Assembly: GCF_000828085.3 (NCBI RefSeq)
Contig: NZ_JXCA02000024.1
Coordinates: 96,790-157,920 of the forward strand
Reading direction: 5' to 3'
Length of the DNA: 61,131 nt
From: Scytonema tolypothrichoides VB-61278
Lineage (GTDB): Bacteria; Cyanobacteriota; Cyanobacteriia; Cyanobacteriales; Nostocaceae
Part shown: positions 26,692 through 36,981 of the stretch, one piece after another
How the letters are laid out: the number at the start of each line of letters is the position of its first letter
Numbering within the stretch: position 1 is the stretch's first letter
The notes under the pieces: generated by a model
Seen by the model: only the letters and a program-made list of their open reading frames with translations
What the model was told of the DNA's origin: nothing
The model's database searches: none
Program-made: the position numbers and the translations under genes

Positions 26692-27627
26692 ATGACTGTT
26701 AAAATCTATATTTGGAAAGGTACAAATCCCGAACTCTCGGTGTATAACGTTCGAGGTAATGTAGGTCACGTATCAATGCAAATCTGCGATTCAACTAAAT
26801 CAAACGATACTGTCTATATAAGTCATAGACCAGGTGGTTCAAATCCAGATCCAGAAAGTACAGATTCAGCAAGTACAAGTCCTAATCCACCTAGAAGAAA
26901 TAGTAAAGACTTATTGAATTATGCTATGAAGGCACCCGCTGAAAGAGAGAAAGACATTACATTTGAGTATGAGTGCAATAAAATTAGGAAGCGTGAACCT
27001 GATGTGACAATTGAAATCAAAGGCTTGGATGAAACTCGAATGAGAGAACTGTGGCGGGAGTATGATTCTAATAAGTTATAAATTTCAAAGTATCATATTA
27101 AAACGTCTAATTGTTCTAAGGCGGTTGTTACTTTTCTACAAGCAGGTTTAAAATGTCCTAGAGATAAGATTTGTCCTTTCTGCGCTCCAACTCATAATGT
27201 AGGCAAGCGCAGACCAGGAAGACTTTGGAAACTAGCAGGTACAGTAAGTCTTATAGTTTTTGTAGGTAGGTCTTGGATTTCGTCAGGACGTTATGAATAT
27301 GAGCAACAGCGTAAACAAGATTATTACAACAAGATTAAAGAACAGTTTCAGCAACCTGTAGACCCAAATACTGGTTATCGTAGAATAGAACTACCGCCTT
27401 CCAATCAATTTGATGGGTTTAGCCTATTTCTTGGACTTGCAGCTTTAATAGTAGGTTACTTATGGTTAACTGGGGGTCTTTTTGATATAGAACTATTTTT
27501 TAACCCTTGGACTAAACTAAAGTTGTGGTCGCCTCAGACAGTTGAAATTTTTGCCAATAAAGTACGTGAACACGCTTCTCAACAGCCCAAACAATTATGT
27601 AAAAGAAAAAGATTTTTTTTAAATTGA
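26692..27627 (+). pseudogene. Membrane protein with permuted papain-like motifs, split by in-frame TAA
   Basis: A 129-codon ORF (26692-27081) ends at TAA, but the same frame stays open for 181 further codons to the TGA at 27625-27627, with no good start codon of its own, so the two parts were one protein of about 311 aa. Part one has KIYIWKG and NVGHVSMQI at about residues 23-31; part two has TSNCSKAVVTFLQAG soon after the stop, two transmembrane stretches (WKLAGTVSLIVFVG; FSLFLGLAALIVGYLWL) and LWSPQTVEIFANKV near the end. A GHVS histidine followed by an NCS cysteine and a W(S/T)P motif is the order seen in circularly permuted NlpC/P60-like (papain-fold) amidases and acyltransferases. The family call is inference. 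The stop separates the putative His and Cys, so without readthrough the enzyme is dead. Confidence 0.6.
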
Positions 27628-27637
27628 ATCACCAAAA

Positions 27638-28108
27638 ATGCAACTACAACCAAGTGATATTATCGCCTCTTTAGCTCTCATTACTTCTCTTTTTAGCATC
27701 TGGATACAAGATAGAGGTGTTCGCAAACAATTACTCGTAACAAACATAGGCGAGTACACAAGGCGATATCAGGAAATTATTTTAAATTTACCGAAAAGTG
27801 TAATATTTGATGATTTCAATCTGGCTTCTTTAGAAGTAGAAGAACAGGACAGGATTTTGCGTTATATGTGGATATACTTTGATTTATGCTATGAAGAATA
27901 TTCTATATACACAGATTTGAGGCTGATTAATAAAAAATTATGGAAAAGATGGAAATCAGGTATAATATCAAGTTTTAGTAGACCTGCTTTTCAGCAGTCT
28001 TGGTATTTAATTTCTCAAAATACGACTTACCCTGAACATTTTGTTGATTTTATACATTCCATCATAGAAAATCAAACGTTAAAAAATAAAAAATTTCTTT
28101 CAGCTTAA
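27638..28108 (+). CDS. Small membrane-anchored protein, unknown function
   Basis: A 156-aa protein starting 10 bases after the stop of the split gene, so probably in the same transcript. The N-terminus has one transmembrane helix (DIIASLALITSLFSIWI) followed by a cytoplasmic helical domain with many aromatic residues (YMWIYFDLCYEEYSIY). The pattern resembles small DUF4760-like membrane proteins, but I cannot assign a family with confidence. Its AT-rich composition matches the split upstream gene and differs from the permease fragment that follows. Confidence 0.65.
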   Translation: MQLQPSDIIASLALITSLFSIWIQDRGVRKQLLVTNIGEYTRRYQEIILNLPKSVIFDDFNLASLEVEEQDRILRYMWIYFDLCYEEYSIYTDLRLINKKLWKRWKSGIISSFSRPAFQQSWYLISQNTTYPEHFVDFIHSIIENQTLKNKKFLSA

Positions 28109-28111
28109 GCC

Positions 28112-28654
28112 TTGAGTTTTCTTACAATAGCCCCCAAAGCCAAGAGTGCAGATGGATCTGCTCGAATTGTGTATGCAATGAGCCGGGAGGCGCTGTTTCC
28201 CGCTTGGTTCGCTCGGATTCATCCCACATACCGCACACCTGCGAATGCAATTTGGGGATTAAGCGGTATGTCGTTAGTCGTAGGGCTGGGTCTGGGAATG
28301 CTGTGGACACCGATCGCGACATATGGGTTTCTTGGAACCCTGTTGACGCTGGCTGTCCTGATCATTTACGGATTAGTCAGTCTTGCGTGTTGGCGATATT
28401 TTTCCATCCAACGCCGCACACGCCACTCCTTGCATCATCATGTGCTACCTTGGCTCTCGATAATCGTTATTCTCAGTATTTTAGTTGGCACAGTTTATCC
28501 CTCTCCACCAGCACCGCTTAACTTAGCGCCTTACATCATCCTCGTTTGGCTGTTGCTTGGAATGATCGTGTTTTGGTTTCTCCTCTTTCGGAAACCCGAA
28601 GCCCTGCGTCAAGCAGGCAAAGTCTTTCTGGCTCCTGAAACCGAAGTCAATTAG
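28112..28654 (+). pseudogene. APC-type amino acid permease, C-terminal fragment
   Basis: From about 28148 the frame reads ADGSARIVYAMSREALFP, then AWFARIHPTYRTPANAIW, and four hydrophobic segments to a stop at 28654. This is the C-terminal third of an amino acid-polyamine-organocation permease (full length usually above 450 aa). The first 12 codons of the open frame derive from other DNA: bases 28130-28149 match the tail of the NB-ARC/WD40 gene at about 33136. It has no ribosome binding site of its own and is probably not functional. Confidence 0.8.
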
Positions 28655-28727
28655 TTACTTCAACTTTCTTCAGTCTGTAAAGTTGAAATTTTTTCATTTT
28701 AATATCAACAAGCGATCGCCTACAAAC

Positions 28728-28820
28728 CTACCCAATACCTTCCACAGCCCCCAAAGCTAATAGAGCCGATCACTGTGCTGGAGTTACCCCTGTGATGTTC
28801 ATCCCTTCGTAAAGGCGATC
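28728..28820 (-). pseudogene. Duplicated C-terminal tail of the NB-ARC/WD40 protein
   Basis: The minus strand reads [16 protein letters not shown], a TGA, then [13 protein letters not shown] and a stop, matching the last 30 residues of the protein ending at 33118 ([15 protein letters not shown]). The TGA replaces an Arg codon (CGA). It is a leftover of a second gene copy or of a recombination. Confidence 0.85.
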
Positions 28821-28846
28821 GCACTGCTGGTGATGGATTGATGTGG

Positions 28847-28988
28847 GCGATGTCTACGAAAAGCTACGCCTACGCATTTGTAATGATGGGGATGATGTGG
28901 GCGATCGCTCCTGTTTATTTACGAAAGCCTTAAGTTGAAATTAACTTGCTAAAGTTGCCTGGTGTAAGTAAGAGAAAGTCTGCAAACT
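28847..28988 (+). repeat. Direct repeat, copy B
   Basis: Second copy of the repeat at 26385-26525, same orientation. It ends about 35 bp before the ribosome binding site of the acyl-AMP ligase gene, so it may carry part of that operon's promoter. Confidence 0.8.
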
Positions 28989-29034
28989 GGAATCATGTAA
29001 CTAAGTAGAAATTACATAATCAAAGGAGAAATTT

Positions 29035-30765
29035 ATTAAACCTGACTTTTTAACTTTAGTTGACATATTACGCTACAGGGCAATCCACCAGCCTGATCAA
29101 ACAGCATACATTTTCCTTCAAGACGGAGAAAAAAATTTAGTCAGCACAACTTATCAAAAATTGAATAAACGCACACAAGCGATCGCACAAAATTTGCAAT
29201 CAATATGCCCTGCTGGTTCAAATGCCTTACTGCTCTATCCGCCAGGATTAGATTTTATAGAAGCATTTTTTGCTTGTTTATATGCTGGAGTCGTTGCTAT
29301 TCCTGCTTATCCGCCTCGTCTTAATCAATCTCTATCCAGACTGCAAGCAATTATTGCAGATGCACAGCCGACTCTAGTGCTTACCACCCAACTTTTAATG
29401 TCTAAACTACAACAAAATTTTAAGGAGTTTGAACATTTGCAAACTCTAGACTTGTTGGCAACTAATAACATTAACAATGACTCAGTACAAGAATGGCAAC
29501 AACCAGTGATAAATAATGACACCCTAAGTTTTCTCCAATATACTTCGGGTTCCACAGGTAAACCAAAAGGAGTGATGGTAAGTCATGGCAATTTGTTGCA
29601 CAATTTGGAGTGCATTAAGCAAGCTTTTGAACTCACTTCAGAAAGTGTATCTGTGACTTGGCTACCAAGTTTCCATGATATGGGTTTAATTGACGGTATT
29701 CTTGAACCTTTGTATACAGGGTATATTGGGATATTGATGTCACCTACATCTTTTCTTCAACAACCAATACGATGGCTACAAGCAATTTCAAACTACAAAG
29801 CAACTCATAGTGGAAGCCCTAACTTTGGATATGATCTTTGTGTTCGTAAAATTACTCTAGAACAGCAAAGAACTCTTGATTTAAGTACATGGTATAGTGC
29901 TTATAACGGTTCTGAACCGATTAAACAAGAAACTCTAGAGAATTTTACAGCTAAATTTCAATCAAATGGTTTTTGTGCGAAATACTTTTATCCTTGCTAT
30001 GGTCTGGCTGAATCCACTTTAATAGTTTCTGGTGGACTGATTAACAATGAGCCAATTTATTGCCAAATAAACGCAGATTATTTGAAAAATAATCAAGCTG
30101 TAGTTACATCTAAAGAAGTAGAAAAAACTCGGTCATTAGTTGGATGTGGAAGAGTATGGTTAGATACAAAAATTCTTATTGTTGATCCAGTCTCACTAAA
30201 AAATTGCGCTCCAGATCAAGTAGGCGAAATTTTAGTATCAGGTTCTAGTGTTGCTCAAGGTTACTGGAACCGTCCGCAGGAAACTAAAGAAATCTTTCAA
30301 GCTTATTTGGTAGATACAGGAGAAGGACCGTTTTTACGAACAGGAGACTTGGGATTTATTAAAGACGGGGAGTTGTATATTACAGGTCGTTTGAAGGATG
30401 TGATTATTATTCGAGGTCGTAATTATTATCCCCAAGATATAGAATTTACCGCAGAGCAAACCCATCCTGCACTAAGTTTTGGTTGTGGTGCAGCATTTGT
30501 AGCAGATTTTAAGGGTCAAGAGCGCTTGATTATAGCGAATGAAGTAAAACGCAGTTATCTCAAGAAGCTCAACATAACTGAAATTGAGGGTAATATCCGG
30601 GAAGCAGTAGCACGTGAACATGAACTACAAGTTTATGCTGTTCTGTTACTAAAACCTGCAAGTATTCCAAAAACTTCTAGTGGAAAGATACAGCGTCATG
30701 CTTGTCGGAATAAATTTTTAAATGGAACTTTAAATTTGGTGAATACTCAATGTCAAAACAATTAA
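29035..30765 (+). CDS. Fatty acyl-AMP ligase (FAAL), apparent AUU start
   Basis: A 577-aa adenylate-forming enzyme that activates a fatty acid as acyl-AMP and loads it onto an acyl carrier protein. Motifs: LQYTSGSTGKPKGVMVSHGN (ATP binding), WLPSFHDMGLIDGILEPLY, YGLAESTLIVSGG and FLRTGDLGFIKDGELYITGR; the FHDMGL and PCYGLAE patterns are of the FAAL group. A TTG at 29161 would cut off the conserved N-terminus; the frame is open upstream, reading PDFLTLVDILRYRAIHQPDQ. With stop TAA at 29017, the only fitting start is ATT at 29035, six bases after AAAGGAG. First gene of the cassette; it overlaps the desaturase by 16 bp. Confidence 0.9.
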   Translation: MKPDFLTLVDILRYRAIHQPDQTAYIFLQDGEKNLVSTTYQKLNKRTQAIAQNLQSICPAGSNALLLYPPGLDFIEAFFACLYAGVVAIPAYPPRLNQSLSRLQAIIADAQPTLVLTTQLLMSKLQQNFKEFEHLQTLDLLATNNINNDSVQEWQQPVINNDTLSFLQYTSGSTGKPKGVMVSHGNLLHNLECIKQAFELTSESVSVTWLPSFHDMGLIDGILEPLYTGYIGILMSPTSFLQQPIRWLQAISNYKATHSGSPNFGYDLCVRKITLEQQRTLDLSTWYSAYNGSEPIKQETLENFTAKFQSNGFCAKYFYPCYGLAESTLIVSGGLINNEPIYCQINADYLKNNQAVVTSKEVEKTRSLVGCGRVWLDTKILIVDPVSLKNCAPDQVGEILVSGSSVAQGYWNRPQETKEIFQAYLVDTGEGPFLRTGDLGFIKDGELYITGRLKDVIIIRGRNYYPQDIEFTAEQTHPALSFGCGAAFVADFKGQERLIIANEVKRSYLKKLNITEIEGNIREAVAREHELQVYAVLLLKPASIPKTSSGKIQRHACRNKFLNGTLNLVNTQCQNN

Positions 30766-31739
30766 ATTGTGAACAACAATTTGAAAATGTTCAAATTTCA
30801 GACACCTTGCTCAATAATAAATTTCAACCCATTGTATCTAATGATCGCATTAAAGCTGCTAAACGGCGTTTTACTTTGACTATCAGCCTAACATCCTTGA
30901 CAGGGTGCCTAATTGCCATCTACCAGTTATTTACTTCAAGTGTTGGTTTATTAGAAATAAGTTTGTTATTATTCATGTACGTTGTATGTGTACTAGGAAT
31001 TACAGTAGGTTTTCATAGGCATTTTACGCACCAATCCTTCAAAACTCGAACTCCAATTAGGATTATACTTGCTATACTTGGTTCTATGGCTGGTCAAGGA
31101 TCTGTTATTGCTTGGGTATCAATTCACAGATGTCATCATCAATATAGTGATAAACAAGGAGATCCCCATTCGCCTAACATTCATGGTAAGGGTATTTTAG
31201 AAAAGCTTAATGGACTGTGGCATTCTCATCTTGGCTGGTTATTTAACAGTGAATTACCAAATTCCTTAGTATTCGCCAAAGATTTATTGAAAGATCCTGT
31301 TATTTGTCAGATCAATAGGCTGTATGTTGCTTGGATACTACTTGGTCTTCTTATTCCATCAATTGTTGGTGGAATTTTAACTTGGAATTGGCTAGGGATA
31401 TTCCAAGGGTTTGTTTGGGGTGGACTAGCAAGGCTTTTCTTAACATTCAATAGTGGTTATATTATTAATTCAATTGCTCATACTTATGGCAAACGGCTTT
31501 TTAACACCTCTGAACAAAGTCAAAATAATATTTGGCTAGCTATTCCTACATTAGGAGAAGGATGGCACAATAACCACCACGCTTTTCCCATGAGCGCGAA
31601 TTTTGGTTTGAAAATCTGGCAAATTGACTTGGGTTACTGGGTTATTAGAGTACTTCAATTAGTGGGTTTAGCGACAGACATTAAACTTCCTCAGCCAGAA
31701 ATGATTGAATCCAAAAAAATTGTTTCGCATCCAGGGTAA
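30750..31739 (+). CDS. Membrane fatty acid desaturase
   Basis: A 329-aa di-iron desaturase of the DesC/acyl-CoA desaturase superfamily. The three histidine boxes are complete: HRHFTH (about residues 89-94), HRCHHQYSD (126-134) and GEGWHNNHH near 270; several transmembrane segments surround them. The ATG lies inside the end of the acyl-AMP ligase gene (16-bp overlap). Between a ligase and an ACP gene, the likely substrate is an acyl chain on that ACP, as in JamB of the jamaicamide pathway; whether it makes an alkene or an alkyne cannot be told from the motifs. Confidence 0.92.
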   Translation: MSKQLNCEQQFENVQISDTLLNNKFQPIVSNDRIKAAKRRFTLTISLTSLTGCLIAIYQLFTSSVGLLEISLLLFMYVVCVLGITVGFHRHFTHQSFKTRTPIRIILAILGSMAGQGSVIAWVSIHRCHHQYSDKQGDPHSPNIHGKGILEKLNGLWHSHLGWLFNSELPNSLVFAKDLLKDPVICQINRLYVAWILLGLLIPSIVGGILTWNWLGIFQGFVWGGLARLFLTFNSGYIINSIAHTYGKRLFNTSEQSQNNIWLAIPTLGEGWHNNHHAFPMSANFGLKIWQIDLGYWVIRVLQLVGLATDIKLPQPEMIESKKIVSHPG

Positions 31740-31830
31740 TTATAATATATGAAGAAGCTTGCTTGGAAATAATTACATTTGTTGAACTATTGAGTGTTAG
31801 AAATTTAGAACTATCAGAGAAGCAAAAAAA

Positions 31831-32187
31831 ATGGAACTACAAAAAAAATATCAATTTAGCTCTACAGATTCGATGATTGACGATACCAAAAATCAAGTAA
31901 ATACAGGATTAATTAAGCTAACAGAAGCTGATATAAAAGCCTGGTTAGTCTCTTACCTAGCAGAAATTTTAGAAATTAGTCAGGAAGAAATTGATACTAA
32001 AATTCCATTTAATCGCTACGGTCTGGATTCTTCAGCAACAGTAGGCTTGGCTGGAGACCTAGAAAATTGGCTAGAACAAGAACTTGATCCTGCTTTAGTA
32101 TACAATTACCCAACTATTGAAGCTTTAACTCAGCATTTAGCTTCTTTAAGTAAAAGTTATGCCAAAAATTTACGTCAACGGGATTGA
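31831..32187 (+). CDS. Acyl carrier protein
   Basis: A 118-aa protein with a single phosphopantetheine-binding domain at about residues 28-108. FNRYGLDSSATVGLAGDLE holds the serine that carries the cofactor (GLDS), and LDPALVYNYPTIEALTQHLA is the usual last part of PKS-type carrier domains. The 27-residue N-terminal extension is unusual for a free ACP. It should accept the acyl group from the upstream ligase and present it to the desaturase. The last 29 bases overlap the hydrolase start. Confidence 0.92.
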   Translation: MELQKKYQFSSTDSMIDDTKNQVNTGLIKLTEADIKAWLVSYLAEILEISQEEIDTKIPFNRYGLDSSATVGLAGDLENWLEQELDPALVYNYPTIEALTQHLASLSKSYAKNLRQRD

Positions 32188-32956
32188 TTTGTTCTACAAA
32201 ATCCAAGGAACGGGTACACCTTTAATATTAATCGCTGGGTTTGATTGTGATAACTCTTACTGGTCAGCAATTTTACCAGCACTGGTAAATAATTATCAAG
32301 TGATTCGCTTAGATAACCGAGGGGTAGGAAGAAGTTCGGTGCCCGATAGTCCATATAGTATTAAACAGATGGCTGATGATACTGCTACACTATTAAATTA
32401 TTTGGGAATTACTAAAGTACATGTAGTAGGTCATTCAATGGGTGGACAAATTGCTCAAGAATTAACTTTAGTACACCCTGAAAAAGTCAAAAGTTTAATA
32501 CTACTTTCATCTTGGGCAAAAGCGAATGCTAAGTTTAATTCAATAATTGAAATTTTTGGTAACTTATCTATTCATTTAGAAGCAAAAATTTATCAAAAAA
32601 CATTACTGCCTTGGATATATACTGAAAATTTTTACTCAAATGGAAGCATTGAAGATATTATTAATATCATTGAATATTCTTCATTACCAACACCCCACGG
32701 AATTTATCATCAAAGCAGAGCAATTCTTTATAGTGATACGAGTAACAGTCTCAGCAATATTCTTTGTCCAACATTAGTTGTTGTCGGGAAAGAAGACATT
32801 CTTACTCCCGTTACATTCTCTAAGCAACTTGTTAATGGTATTCCTAATGCCGAACTTGTCGTTATTGAATCCTCTGGTCATGGTTTGTTGATTGAGTCAG
32901 CAGATGCGGTGGTAAAAGTAATGCTTCAATTTTTAGCAAAACAAGCTTGTTTTTGA
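32159..32956 (+). CDS. Alpha/beta hydrolase, possible thioesterase
   Basis: A 265-aa alpha/beta-hydrolase. GHSMGGQIAQEL (about residues 93-104) is the nucleophile elbow with catalytic Ser; LIAGFDCDNSYWS near residue 25 is the oxyanion-hole region; EDILTPVTFS (about 217) and SSGHGLLIESADAV (about 241) supply the Asp and His. It starts inside the ACP gene, so the two are translationally coupled. As last gene of a ligase/desaturase/ACP operon it may release the modified chain from the ACP, but the family is broad and this role is inferred. Confidence 0.9.
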   Translation: MPKIYVNGIDLFYKIQGTGTPLILIAGFDCDNSYWSAILPALVNNYQVIRLDNRGVGRSSVPDSPYSIKQMADDTATLLNYLGITKVHVVGHSMGGQIAQELTLVHPEKVKSLILLSSWAKANAKFNSIIEIFGNLSIHLEAKIYQKTLLPWIYTENFYSNGSIEDIINIIEYSSLPTPHGIYHQSRAILYSDTSNSLSNILCPTLVVVGKEDILTPVTFSKQLVNGIPNAELVVIESSGHGLLIESADAVVKVMLQFLAKQACF

Positions 32957-33117
32957 GCATTTTAAAAATCGGCAGAGATGGGCTAAATTATCCCCACAGT
33001 GATGTTTATTTTAGACTGTGCTCTTACGACTCGTATAAATAAATTTATGTTTTACCTATTAATAAAAGTAGGTAAAATTTAGCTTGTAGTTATAAAATCA
33101 GGAGAAAACAATAAAAC

Positions 33118-36100
33118 CTACCCAATACCTTCCACCGCCCCCAAAGCCAAAAGTGCCGATCGCTGCGCTGCTGTTAACCCCGTCACCCCCCTGATGTTCA
33201 TCCCTTCATAAAGGCGATCAATTTTCAGGGTTTTTATGCACTCAAAAGTTTTCATATCCCAAAGCTTAATTCCCTTATCTTGACTGGTATGAGCCAAGAT
33301 ATTACCAGTAGAATTAAAGCAAACAGAACATACTCCACTACTTTGAGTATGCAGGACTCTGACAGAATTAAGGTTATTAATATCCCATAAGCGAATTGTT
33401 TGGTCAGAACTAGCGGATGCCAAGGTGCAACTATCAGGGCTAAAACTGACTGACCATACAGTAGAAGTATGTCCTTCTAATACTTTTACACAAGTAAAGT
33501 TGCTGGTATCCCACAATCGAATTAAGCCGTCAATACTAGCACTAGCAAGCATTTTACCATCAGGACTAAAACTCAACGACCAGACTCCATCAGTGTGACG
33601 TGGCAAAGCTTTTATACATTTACCTTCACCCACATCCCATAACTTAACAAAACCATCCTGACTACCTGTAGCTAAAGTATTGCCATCAGGACTAAAGTTA
33701 ACTGACCAGACTTGATCTGTGTGACCTGCTAATGTTTTTAAACATTTATGCTCGTGAATATCCCACAACTTTACACTCGCGTCTCTACTAGCACTAGCCA
33801 AGGTTTGACCATCTGGACTAAAGGTAACTGATGTTACTTCACCGCTATGACCGTTAATGGTTGTAATACAATCACCAGAAATAACATCCCACAACTTAAT
33901 GTTTTTGTCGTCACTGCAACTCGCTAATCTAGAACCATCGGGACTAAAGTTAACTGACCATACCCAATCTGTGTGACTTTGTAAAATTCTAGTACAGTAC
34001 CCAGAAACACCATCCCATAGCCTAACCAAACCATCTACACTACCTGTCGCCAAAATACAATCATCAGGGTTAAAACTGACCGAAAGCGCTCCACTGGAAT
34101 GACCTTGTAAAGTTCTTACGCACATACCTTTACTTACATCCCACATACGCAGGCTGGAATCTTGAGCAGCACTAACTAAGATTCGATCATCTAAACTAAA
34201 AATGACTGAGTACACTTCACTCGTATGTCCGTGGAAAATTTTAACGCACGTACCTTGCTGCACATTCCACAACCTCAAACTGGAGTCATAACTACCCGTG
34301 GCTATAGTTTGACCATCTGAACTAAAGCCAACTGACCATACTTCATTTTTATGGCCTTGAAATGTTTTGATACAAATACCTTTACGCACATCCCATAATC
34401 GAGCAGAGCAGTCACCACTTCCACTGGCAAGAGTTTTACCATCTGGGCTGAAGCGAACCGACCATACCCTGCTCTCATGAGAGAGTAATTTTTTATACAG
34501 ATACCTTCATTGATATCCCACAAGCAAATGTCGCAATCATTACTACCACTGGCTAGGATAGAACCATCTGGATTAAACCTGACTGAACATACCCAACTAT
34601 TATGACCATGCAATACTTTGAGACACGTACCTAAACAAACATCCCACAAACAAATTAAAGTGTCTTGACTACCGCTTGCGAGAGTTTGACCATCCGGACT
34701 AAAGCTGACAGACCAAACAATACCTGTGTGTTTATCTAAAGTTTTTAGACAATCTCCTGTTTGTGTATCCCACAATTTGATTAATCCATCATGACCACCA
34801 CTTGCCAGGGTTTGCCCATCTGGACTAAAGGCGACCGTCCAAACCACACCTTCATGTCCTTTAAATGTCAACAAGTTTTTTCCATCTGCCATTTGCCACA
34901 AGTGAATTTGCCCATCAATATCACCCGTAGCTAACAGTTTTCCATCTGGACTCAAGGCAAGTGAAAAAATATTTTTAAAGCTTTTAGCAAATACAGACTT
35001 ATCAAAAGCAGTATTTTGGAAATTAACTCCAGCTAAGTTTACACGTTGTAAGTCCGCTTGCCTAATGCTCAAATTTGAGAAATCGTACCCCTGTAAATTT
35101 ATTTGCAAATGCGCTAACAAATTGACGATATTGCCCCCCGCATACCCTACTAGTATTGCAGCTTGATGTCTTTGCTGCTCCAATACATCCTGCAACAAAA
35201 TTACCAGCTTTTGTTGACTGCCCATCTCTAGTAACAATTGCTCAAGTAAGGGTTGCACAATTAATTGCTTTTGTGTCTCCCTGATATAGTCTTTACTTGT
35301 TGTTTTGATTAAAGCATGAGTTTGAAGAACCCCTCCCCTACCCCTCCTCGCGTGCGGGGAGGGGTCGCGAAGCGGGGGTGGGGTTCCTACTAATTCTTGA
35401 CAAAGTTGTTTAACCAATCGCTGCGTCGTATATTCCATCACGACTGGTTGTAGAAAGAAATGCTCGCTGTTTTTTTCAATTAATGAGCGTTGCAATAGAG
35501 ATTTAATTACTCGCGGTAATTGACGCTGGGAAGCAGATGTCACTATATCACCAGCTAACTCGGCAAGGGTTACTGGCTCTCGATTAATTGCCAGCCAATA
35601 CATTACTTCCTCTTCTACTGCTGACAAACGCTGGGACTGGCGTTCTAACAAGTCGCGGATGTCCTCAAAAATTAGTGCGCCTTGTTCTGCATACTCTAAA
35701 ACAAAGGCAATCCTACCATTGAAAAGCTCTTGGGTTCCTGCTGCCACCATCTTGAGTGCCAGAGGATTACCTCCATAATGCTCGATGAGTACTTGCCATT
35801 CTTGTTCTGTACCCGTGAATTGTCCTTTTTGCTGGAATAACTGTTGTCCCTCGGTAGGATTTAATCCCTTTAATGGGAGCGATCGCACTCCTGTTCTTTC
35901 TCCTTCTAACGGGATCATTTCTCTGGGTTTTTCTCTGGAAGTGAACAGAACGCAACTCTTATGGGGTACTTCCCCAACGCGCTTCAGTAATTGACCATAT
36001 CCCTCGTAACCAGGACGACATTGCCCTACTTGACCACCAGAGAGAATTGTCTCAACATTGTCTAAAATCAGCAGACATCGGTTTGTTTGCAAACATTCCA

Positions 36101-36728
36101 TCAACTTTGCTAGTTTGCCATCAAAGCTTTCGGGTATTACCATCTCCTTTCGCAACGCCCATAGCAAAAATTGCAGGATGTTTGTTATTTGCTCCTCTAC
36201 TGGTGGTGCATTTTGCAGGCTGCGCCACACCACTACCTCAAATTCGCTTTGAATTTGCAGCCCCAACTTCACCGCTAAAGTGCTTTTGCCAATACCACCA
36301 ATTCCCAGCAGTCCAACTAAACGACACCGTTCCTCTAATATCCACTGTCGTAGCTGCAATAATTCTTCACTGCGACCAAAAAACACAGATACATCCGGTG
36401 CTTCTTGCCAATCATACTGTGGGTTTTGTTGTCGAGTTTCTAGTTCCTCTAAAGTCGAGGTAGGCCGGGTATAATCGCTTTGAGATAACTCCAGCCCAAA
36501 GGCAGCAAAGGCAAACTGCAAGGAACTTTTATCTACAGGTTCCAAGCGTGCCAAAATTCTAGATATAGTGTGTAGAGCTAAACGGGTGCGTTCGCTCAGT
36601 TCTTCTAAAGAAAAACTATCTCCACCATTTTCATCAAACTCGGCTTGAGTTTTGCCAGCTTGAAATTTATCCCAACCTTTGAGGGTGAGGATGACACCCC
36701 GCCTGCGTCTGCTTGATTGCTGTTTCAT
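33118..36728 (-). CDS. NB-ARC (STAND) NTPase with WD40 repeats, -1 frame change
   Basis: Read from the ATG at 36728 (AGGTGA seven bases before; a GTG at 36737 is less likely). Layout: N-terminal helical region (about 1-115), NB-ARC with P-loop GIGGIGKST (about 143-151), LLILDNVE as Walker B and GGNPLALKM (about 320), a winged-helix region, a short pentapeptide-like piece ([20 protein letters not shown]), then about 14 WD40 blades. At 34488-34494 the frame changes by -1: frame one ends at 34302 with nonsense after EGICIKN, while the -1 frame reads [17 protein letters not shown] without loss and goes to 33118. Total about 1200 aa. STAND proteins are signal-triggered switches in regulation or defence. 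The palindromic repeat at 35327-35386 lies in frame in the middle. Confidence 0.85.
34488..34494 (-). other. Slippery heptamer A AAA AAT at the frame change
   Basis: In gene orientation the zero-frame codons are ATA AAA AAT TAC. A -1 slip on A AAA AAT makes the next codon TTA, which is exactly the frame of the downstream WD40 repeats. A 12-base palindrome CTCTCATGAGAG follows 4 bases later. One lost A from a run of seven would give the same picture. Confidence 0.6.
35327..35386. repeat. Palindromic element inserted in frame in the NB-ARC gene
   Basis: The block ACCCCTCCCCTACCCCTCC... to ...GGGGTGGGGTT contains long C-rich/G-rich dyads and resembles intergenic elements at 37845-37884 and 59418-59445. 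In the protein it adds about 20 residues ([20 protein letters not shown]) between the winged-helix part and the WD40 repeats without breaking the frame. Confidence 0.75.
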
Positions 36729-36981
36729 CAACGTCACCTAAAACGGAGTAGATGCATCTCAACAGAGGATATTCTCAAAGGAAAATAGAAGGATATGGTT
36801 ATGAAACAAAAATTTAAGTTTGACAAATTCAATAAAATGTGCAGTACATATTTTATTCGAGCTAACTCTTCTATGTAACTTCATAGCTTAAGTTAAAGTG
36901 TACTTATGCACAATTCACTATTAGACATTTCCGAAATTAAAAAAAATAAGAATGTACTGGCTTAAGTGTTTCATGCCACAA

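Follow-up and report, generated by a model that had tools for sequence, protein, structure and literature searches.

A probable nonsense-broken gene for a RID-like permuted NlpC/P60 enzyme and its linked membrane partner in Scytonema tolypothrichoides

A reading frame of the cyanobacterium Scytonema tolypothrichoides VB-61278 is closed by TAA after 129 codons and then stays open, in the same phase, for 181 more, which raises the question of whether both parts belong to one gene and, if so, what that gene would encode. The locus lies in a stretch of 61,131 nucleotides (contig NZ_JXCA02000024.1, positions 96,790 to 157,920), here called the window, and an earlier note had read it as one interrupted gene for a papain-like membrane enzyme. 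Here we propose, with a probability of about 0.55, that a single gene has here been interrupted in recent times by a nonsense mutation (or misread), and that its relatives encode a membrane-embedded thiol enzyme of the permuted NlpC/P60 type, similar to RID of the Vibrio MARTX toxins and acting by the mechanism outlined below. The analysis establishes the structure of this gene and its linkage to a partner gene, and it indicates a similarity at the level of the fold.

One gene on both sides of a stop codon

The enzyme gene comprises the following features:

26692..27081, plus strand: first half of the broken enzyme gene, with ATG start, 129 codons and TAA; homologous to the first part of the intact orthologues
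26767-26769, plus strand: codon of the candidate catalytic His, in GHVS (first-half residues 25-28)
27079..27081, plus strand: in-frame TAA, with no stop here in the three intact orthologues
27082..27627, plus strand: second half of the broken enzyme gene, carrying the Cys cluster, the membrane helices and WSPQTV
27112-27114, plus strand: codon of the candidate catalytic Cys, in NCS (second-half residues 10-12)
27154..27183, plus strand: three Cys (C-x5-C-x2-C), juxtamembrane, immediately before the first membrane helix
27223..27279, plus strand: first membrane helix (Kyte-Doolittle), weak in the window copy (1.28)
27424..27480, plus strand: second membrane helix (Kyte-Doolittle)
27526..27534, plus strand: W-S-P motif; WSPQTV begins at second-half residue 149

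Frame analysis bears out the two frames described in the earlier note, together with the positions of GHVS before the stop, NCS after it and WSPQTV near the end. The second frame, which runs to a TGA at 27625-27627, lacks a usable start, its sole ATG, GTG or TTG codon leaving 34 residues. None of 2000 dinucleotide shuffles of this 543-base stretch was open and homologues span both halves, so that its openness is more than chance. Searched separately, each half matches 3 of 99 relatives (the own genome counted), and in Iningainema tapete and Cyanocohniella both halves lie within one open frame; a class sample of 388 genomes adds Trichormus sp. M33_DOE_039 (299 residues) and a weak match in a further genome (G032). 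By kinship table and contig matches, the Scytonema genome, of 7.9 Mb, falls within one family with Iningainema and Trichormus; to their proteins the first half of the window copy is 57-58% identical and the second half 60-64%. A comparison set beforehand that could have refuted a single gene did not do so: all three intact orthologues match both halves. Because both halves match single uninterrupted proteins, the locus is taken as one gene, and two unrelated genes were discarded as an explanation.

The stop codon itself is ordinary, and a freshly inactivated gene, one of the two possibilities raised in the earlier note, is the reading that fits it best. The other, programmed readthrough yielding a short and a long product, could draw on the fact that both halves are intact except for the stop; however, readthrough and alternative decoding were rejected, since programmed readthrough would be recognised by a stop conserved in orthologues and none of the three (Iningainema, Cyanocohniella, Trichormus) has one at this site. 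TAA is, besides, usually the least leaky of the stops, and we regard this explanation as very improbable. A sequencing or assembly error, with the gene intact in the strain, deserves more weight. The ratio of non-synonymous to synonymous substitution rates (dN/dS) of the second half to relatives (0.65-0.73) is close to that of the intact pair of Trichormus and Iningainema (0.68), showing no sign of relaxed selection, yet it cannot date the stop, and the second half carries no further lesion. A simulation counting stops only put the probability of no new stop at 0.20 for 0.05 substitutions per site and at 0.04 for 0.10; the stop would therefore be young, or an error. Against an error speaks the WD40 gene at the same locus (described below), which is also broken and looks like decay of the locus, though both lesions might be erroneous. 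The assembly, in 31 contigs, has a completeness rating of 99.97%, which says little about single bases. On balance, we consider an error somewhat unlikely.

Candidate catalytic residues, predicted fold and membrane insertion

The enzymes have the order of permuted NlpC/P60 proteins, with the His N-terminal to the Cys, as the earlier note had recognised. H26 and C132 are invariant in the four intact membrane-type enzymes (the three orthologues and a relative from Dolichospermum), and the same columns are invariant in 9/9 rows of alignment A10, as is W-x-P, soluble relatives being among these rows; the His and Cys are the candidate catalytic residues. In the structural model, whose mean predicted local distance difference test score (pLDDT) is low at 58.5, residues 26-32 form a strand and residues 132-143 a helix.

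Membrane helices were called with a 19-residue Kyte-Doolittle window and a threshold of 1.4. Each of the three orthologues has two hydrophobic helices above this threshold between the Cys helix and W-S-P (169-187 and 234-252 in Trichormus), in the place where the earlier note had put them; in the window copy only the second exceeds it, the first peaking at 1.28. The Dolichospermum relative has four predicted membrane helices, and the soluble relatives tested have none. If the N- and C-terminal parts make up one fold around the helix hairpin, both would lie on the same side of the membrane, and the charges weakly favour the cytoplasmic one. The three Cys ahead of the first helix, present in membrane-type enzymes only, occur in all four intact ones (with an x5 spacing in three and x3 in Dolichospermum) and may be a metal or acylation site.

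At the sequence level, A10 matched RID (PDB 5xn7) at E 8.8e-9 and A11 at E 8.6e-7. The membrane type alone gave no match to RID at E 10, so that the link of the window gene to RID runs through its soluble relatives. The term amidase, used in the earlier note, proved too specific and should yield to a RID-like acyl-enzyme, because RID, a lysine fatty-acyltransferase, is both the sole match by sequence and the best one by structure. The canonical NLPC_P60 of Pfam is not among the matches listed, and the order of His and Cys is reversed with respect to the canonical amidase. The family is not a catalogued one, which agrees with the undescribed module that the earlier note had suspected: no curated cut-off of Pfam or NCBIfam was reached by the window halves, the orthologues or the partners, the sub-threshold matches including DUF2921 (E 0.0052, Dolichospermum enzyme), MCM_WH_arc (E 0.0033, partner of genome G490) and DUF6082 (E 0.12, Trichormus partner). 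Seven relatives, the window's own proteins left out, gave nothing below E 0.012 in PHROGs. An origin from a phage or plasmid was also discarded: the Iningainema enzyme had no match in plasmid or phage collections, and none of the partner, the enzyme and the soluble family was confirmed in viral contigs.

Several known systems resemble this enzyme in part. Unlike RID, it stands alone as a cyanobacterial protein, has predicted membrane helices within its fold and comes with a partner gene. Lfat1 of Legionella, also a lysine fatty-acyltransferase, shows that a RID-like domain can carry an inserted hairpin, though at another site (PMC12851578): there a coiled coil separates the His from the Cys, whereas here the membrane helices follow the Cys. 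LRAT/PLAAT proteins (PF04970) belong to the same permuted superfamily (PMC3142127) but show no sequence match to the window-type enzyme: PF04970 was not listed at E 10 for the window halves, the orthologues, the Dolichospermum enzyme or the paralogue, and LRAT structures are absent from the structural matches listed. Tox-Act1/Imm-Act1, TseH (DUF6695) and DUF4105 are likewise permuted NlpC/P60 systems, none of them among the Pfam matches here.

The partner gene and its neighbourhood

The small membrane gene that the earlier note had seen downstream starts 10 bp past the TGA of the enzyme, an operon-like arrangement:

27638..28108, plus strand: partner gene, 156 residues, with an N-terminal membrane helix (residues 5-23) and a helical domain

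Its conservation was confirmed, a partner being found with all three orthologues, immediately downstream of the enzyme as in the window. With 74-79% identity to these three, it is more conserved than the enzyme. Its model (pLDDT 81.8) had no convincing match in a comparison with the PDB, and in PADLOC it matched only Csm3 (E 0.033). At E 0.001, partners occur in 9 of 217 genomes of the family, eight of them close (48-79% identical to that of the window), and all eight lie on the same strand as a permuted papain-like gene, in varied arrangements. In Dolichospermum, the partner is upstream of the enzyme and overlaps it; in G490 (loci L024 and L027) it is upstream of a RID-like enzyme, with a gene for a 113-residue protein in between (1968-2309 of L024); in Nostoc carneum and Tolypothrix brevis, its upstream neighbour is a protein of the Pfam LRAT family (3e-14 and 4.8e-14), which fills the enzyme slot. 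Three of the eight enzymes (those of N. carneum, T. brevis and L024) have no predicted membrane helix of their own.

No permuted papain-like gene was found beside the ninth partner (L025, 21% identity). The class sample of 388 genomes gave 12 partner matches at E 1e-5, three already counted, and neither the nine distant ones nor L025 had a linked enzyme by two profiles (A10 and A14), with which other permuted families would be missed. These profiles were used because a regular expression for H..NC picked genes unrelated by eye, and they were run on stretches of 2-12 kb, some ending at contig ends. The linkage of partner and enzyme thus holds for the close clade only.

A third gene accompanies the pair in part of the loci:

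33118..36737, minus strand: WD40-repeat gene that includes a P-loop segment and is interrupted by a frameshift near 34488-34491

In Trichormus and Cyanocohniella, this gene is in one unbroken frame and convergent to the module, ending 23 and 90 bp away from the partner, respectively; in the window, about 5 kb separate it from the partner, and in Iningainema no WD40 gene was seen in the 12 kb covered. The window gene is 81% and 79% identical, in two frames, to the Trichormus protein, and with the congeners the best-scoring match of its first 479 residues reaches 58% (60% in one partial). The P-loop GIGGIGKSTLA, read in the N-terminal part, suggests a STAND-type protein; Pfam gave WD40-type models only (best 25 of 66-76 matches), and the Trichormus protein matched HEAT-ARM_XIII of PADLOC at 9.9e-42. 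The enzyme, its partner and the WD40 gene seem to form a single block of patchy inheritance (3/4 loci), decaying in the window. The intervening DNA (28112-33113) reads as a 3' permease fragment and duplicated pieces, followed by AMP-ligase-, desaturase- and acyl-carrier-like genes; 28724-28820 is an 81% copy of the 3' end of the WD40 gene, and 28846-28988 an 89% copy of the upstream region of the enzyme.

In five of the six loci read, the soluble RID-like family adjoins a histone-deacetylase-like gene rather than the partner. In these five (L030, L031, L033, L034 and L035), the soluble gene overlaps the start of its neighbour, which is not so in L036, a weak match; Hist_deacetyl of Pfam, scanned for L030 only, gave E 6.9e-55. 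An acyl-transfer-type enzyme beside a deacylase-type one suggests a write/erase pair.

A proposed activity and its alternatives

In the mechanism that we propose, the Cys would form an acyl-thioester with a fatty-acyl chain of the membrane. On the cytoplasmic side of the inner membrane, this chain would then be transferred to an acceptor, which may be a lysine, a lipid or water, and the partner would tether, load or restrain the enzyme. In the window strain, the partner is intact, but the enzyme is probably non-functional. The patchy occurrence and the presence of a WD40/STAND-type gene in three genomes suggest a role in conflict or cell suicide. No description of the enzyme-partner pair was found in the literature searched, subscription papers being mostly outside its reach.

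Two other functions have precedents. The pair could be a delivered antibacterial toxin with a membrane immunity protein, as Tox-Act1/Imm-Act1 of Salmonella, where a phospholipase of the same superfamily is paired with a two-helix membrane immunity protein (PMC12994826); the patchy distribution and the intact partner next to a broken enzyme would agree with it. However, the enzyme has membrane helices of its own, no space remains in its intact frames for a domain that would serve export or delivery (no search for secretion-system genes was made), and the partner, more conserved than the enzyme (dN/dS in pairs with the window 0.14-0.20 versus 0.27-0.73) and paired with two enzyme classes, is for this reason unlike a specific immunity protein, all of which makes a delivered toxin quite unlikely. 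A two-part acyltransferase with a housekeeping role, acting on lipids or lipoproteins, would follow LnsA/LnsB of staphylococci, in which a permuted NlpC/P60 enzyme needs a membrane partner (PMC7387801); LnsB is remotely similar to CAAX proteases, whereas the partner described here combines a single predicted membrane helix with a helical domain. Against a housekeeping task stands the rarity of both genes in the counts given above, neither having a match in the genomes of the six congeners, and we hold it to be unlikely.

Going beyond the RID-like enzyme of this locus, we tentatively suggest, with clearly less than even odds, that these proteins are endogenous membrane-embedded RID-like fatty-acyltransferases of filamentous cyanobacteria, with helices in the catalytic fold, which would acylate proteins or lipids of their own membrane under the control of the partner; the latter, serving LRAT-type enzymes as well, would make up a modular two-gene system, possibly linked to a STAND protein in cell-suicide defence. 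In the literature consulted, RID-like lysine fatty-acyltransferases are domains of toxins and effectors of pathogens, with GTPases of the host as their targets. Membrane-bound relatives in free-living cyanobacteria, sharing their partner with LRAT-type enzymes, would, if this is true, give RID-like chemistry a natural bacterial role, and the cyanobacterial module would be a testable two-gene system.
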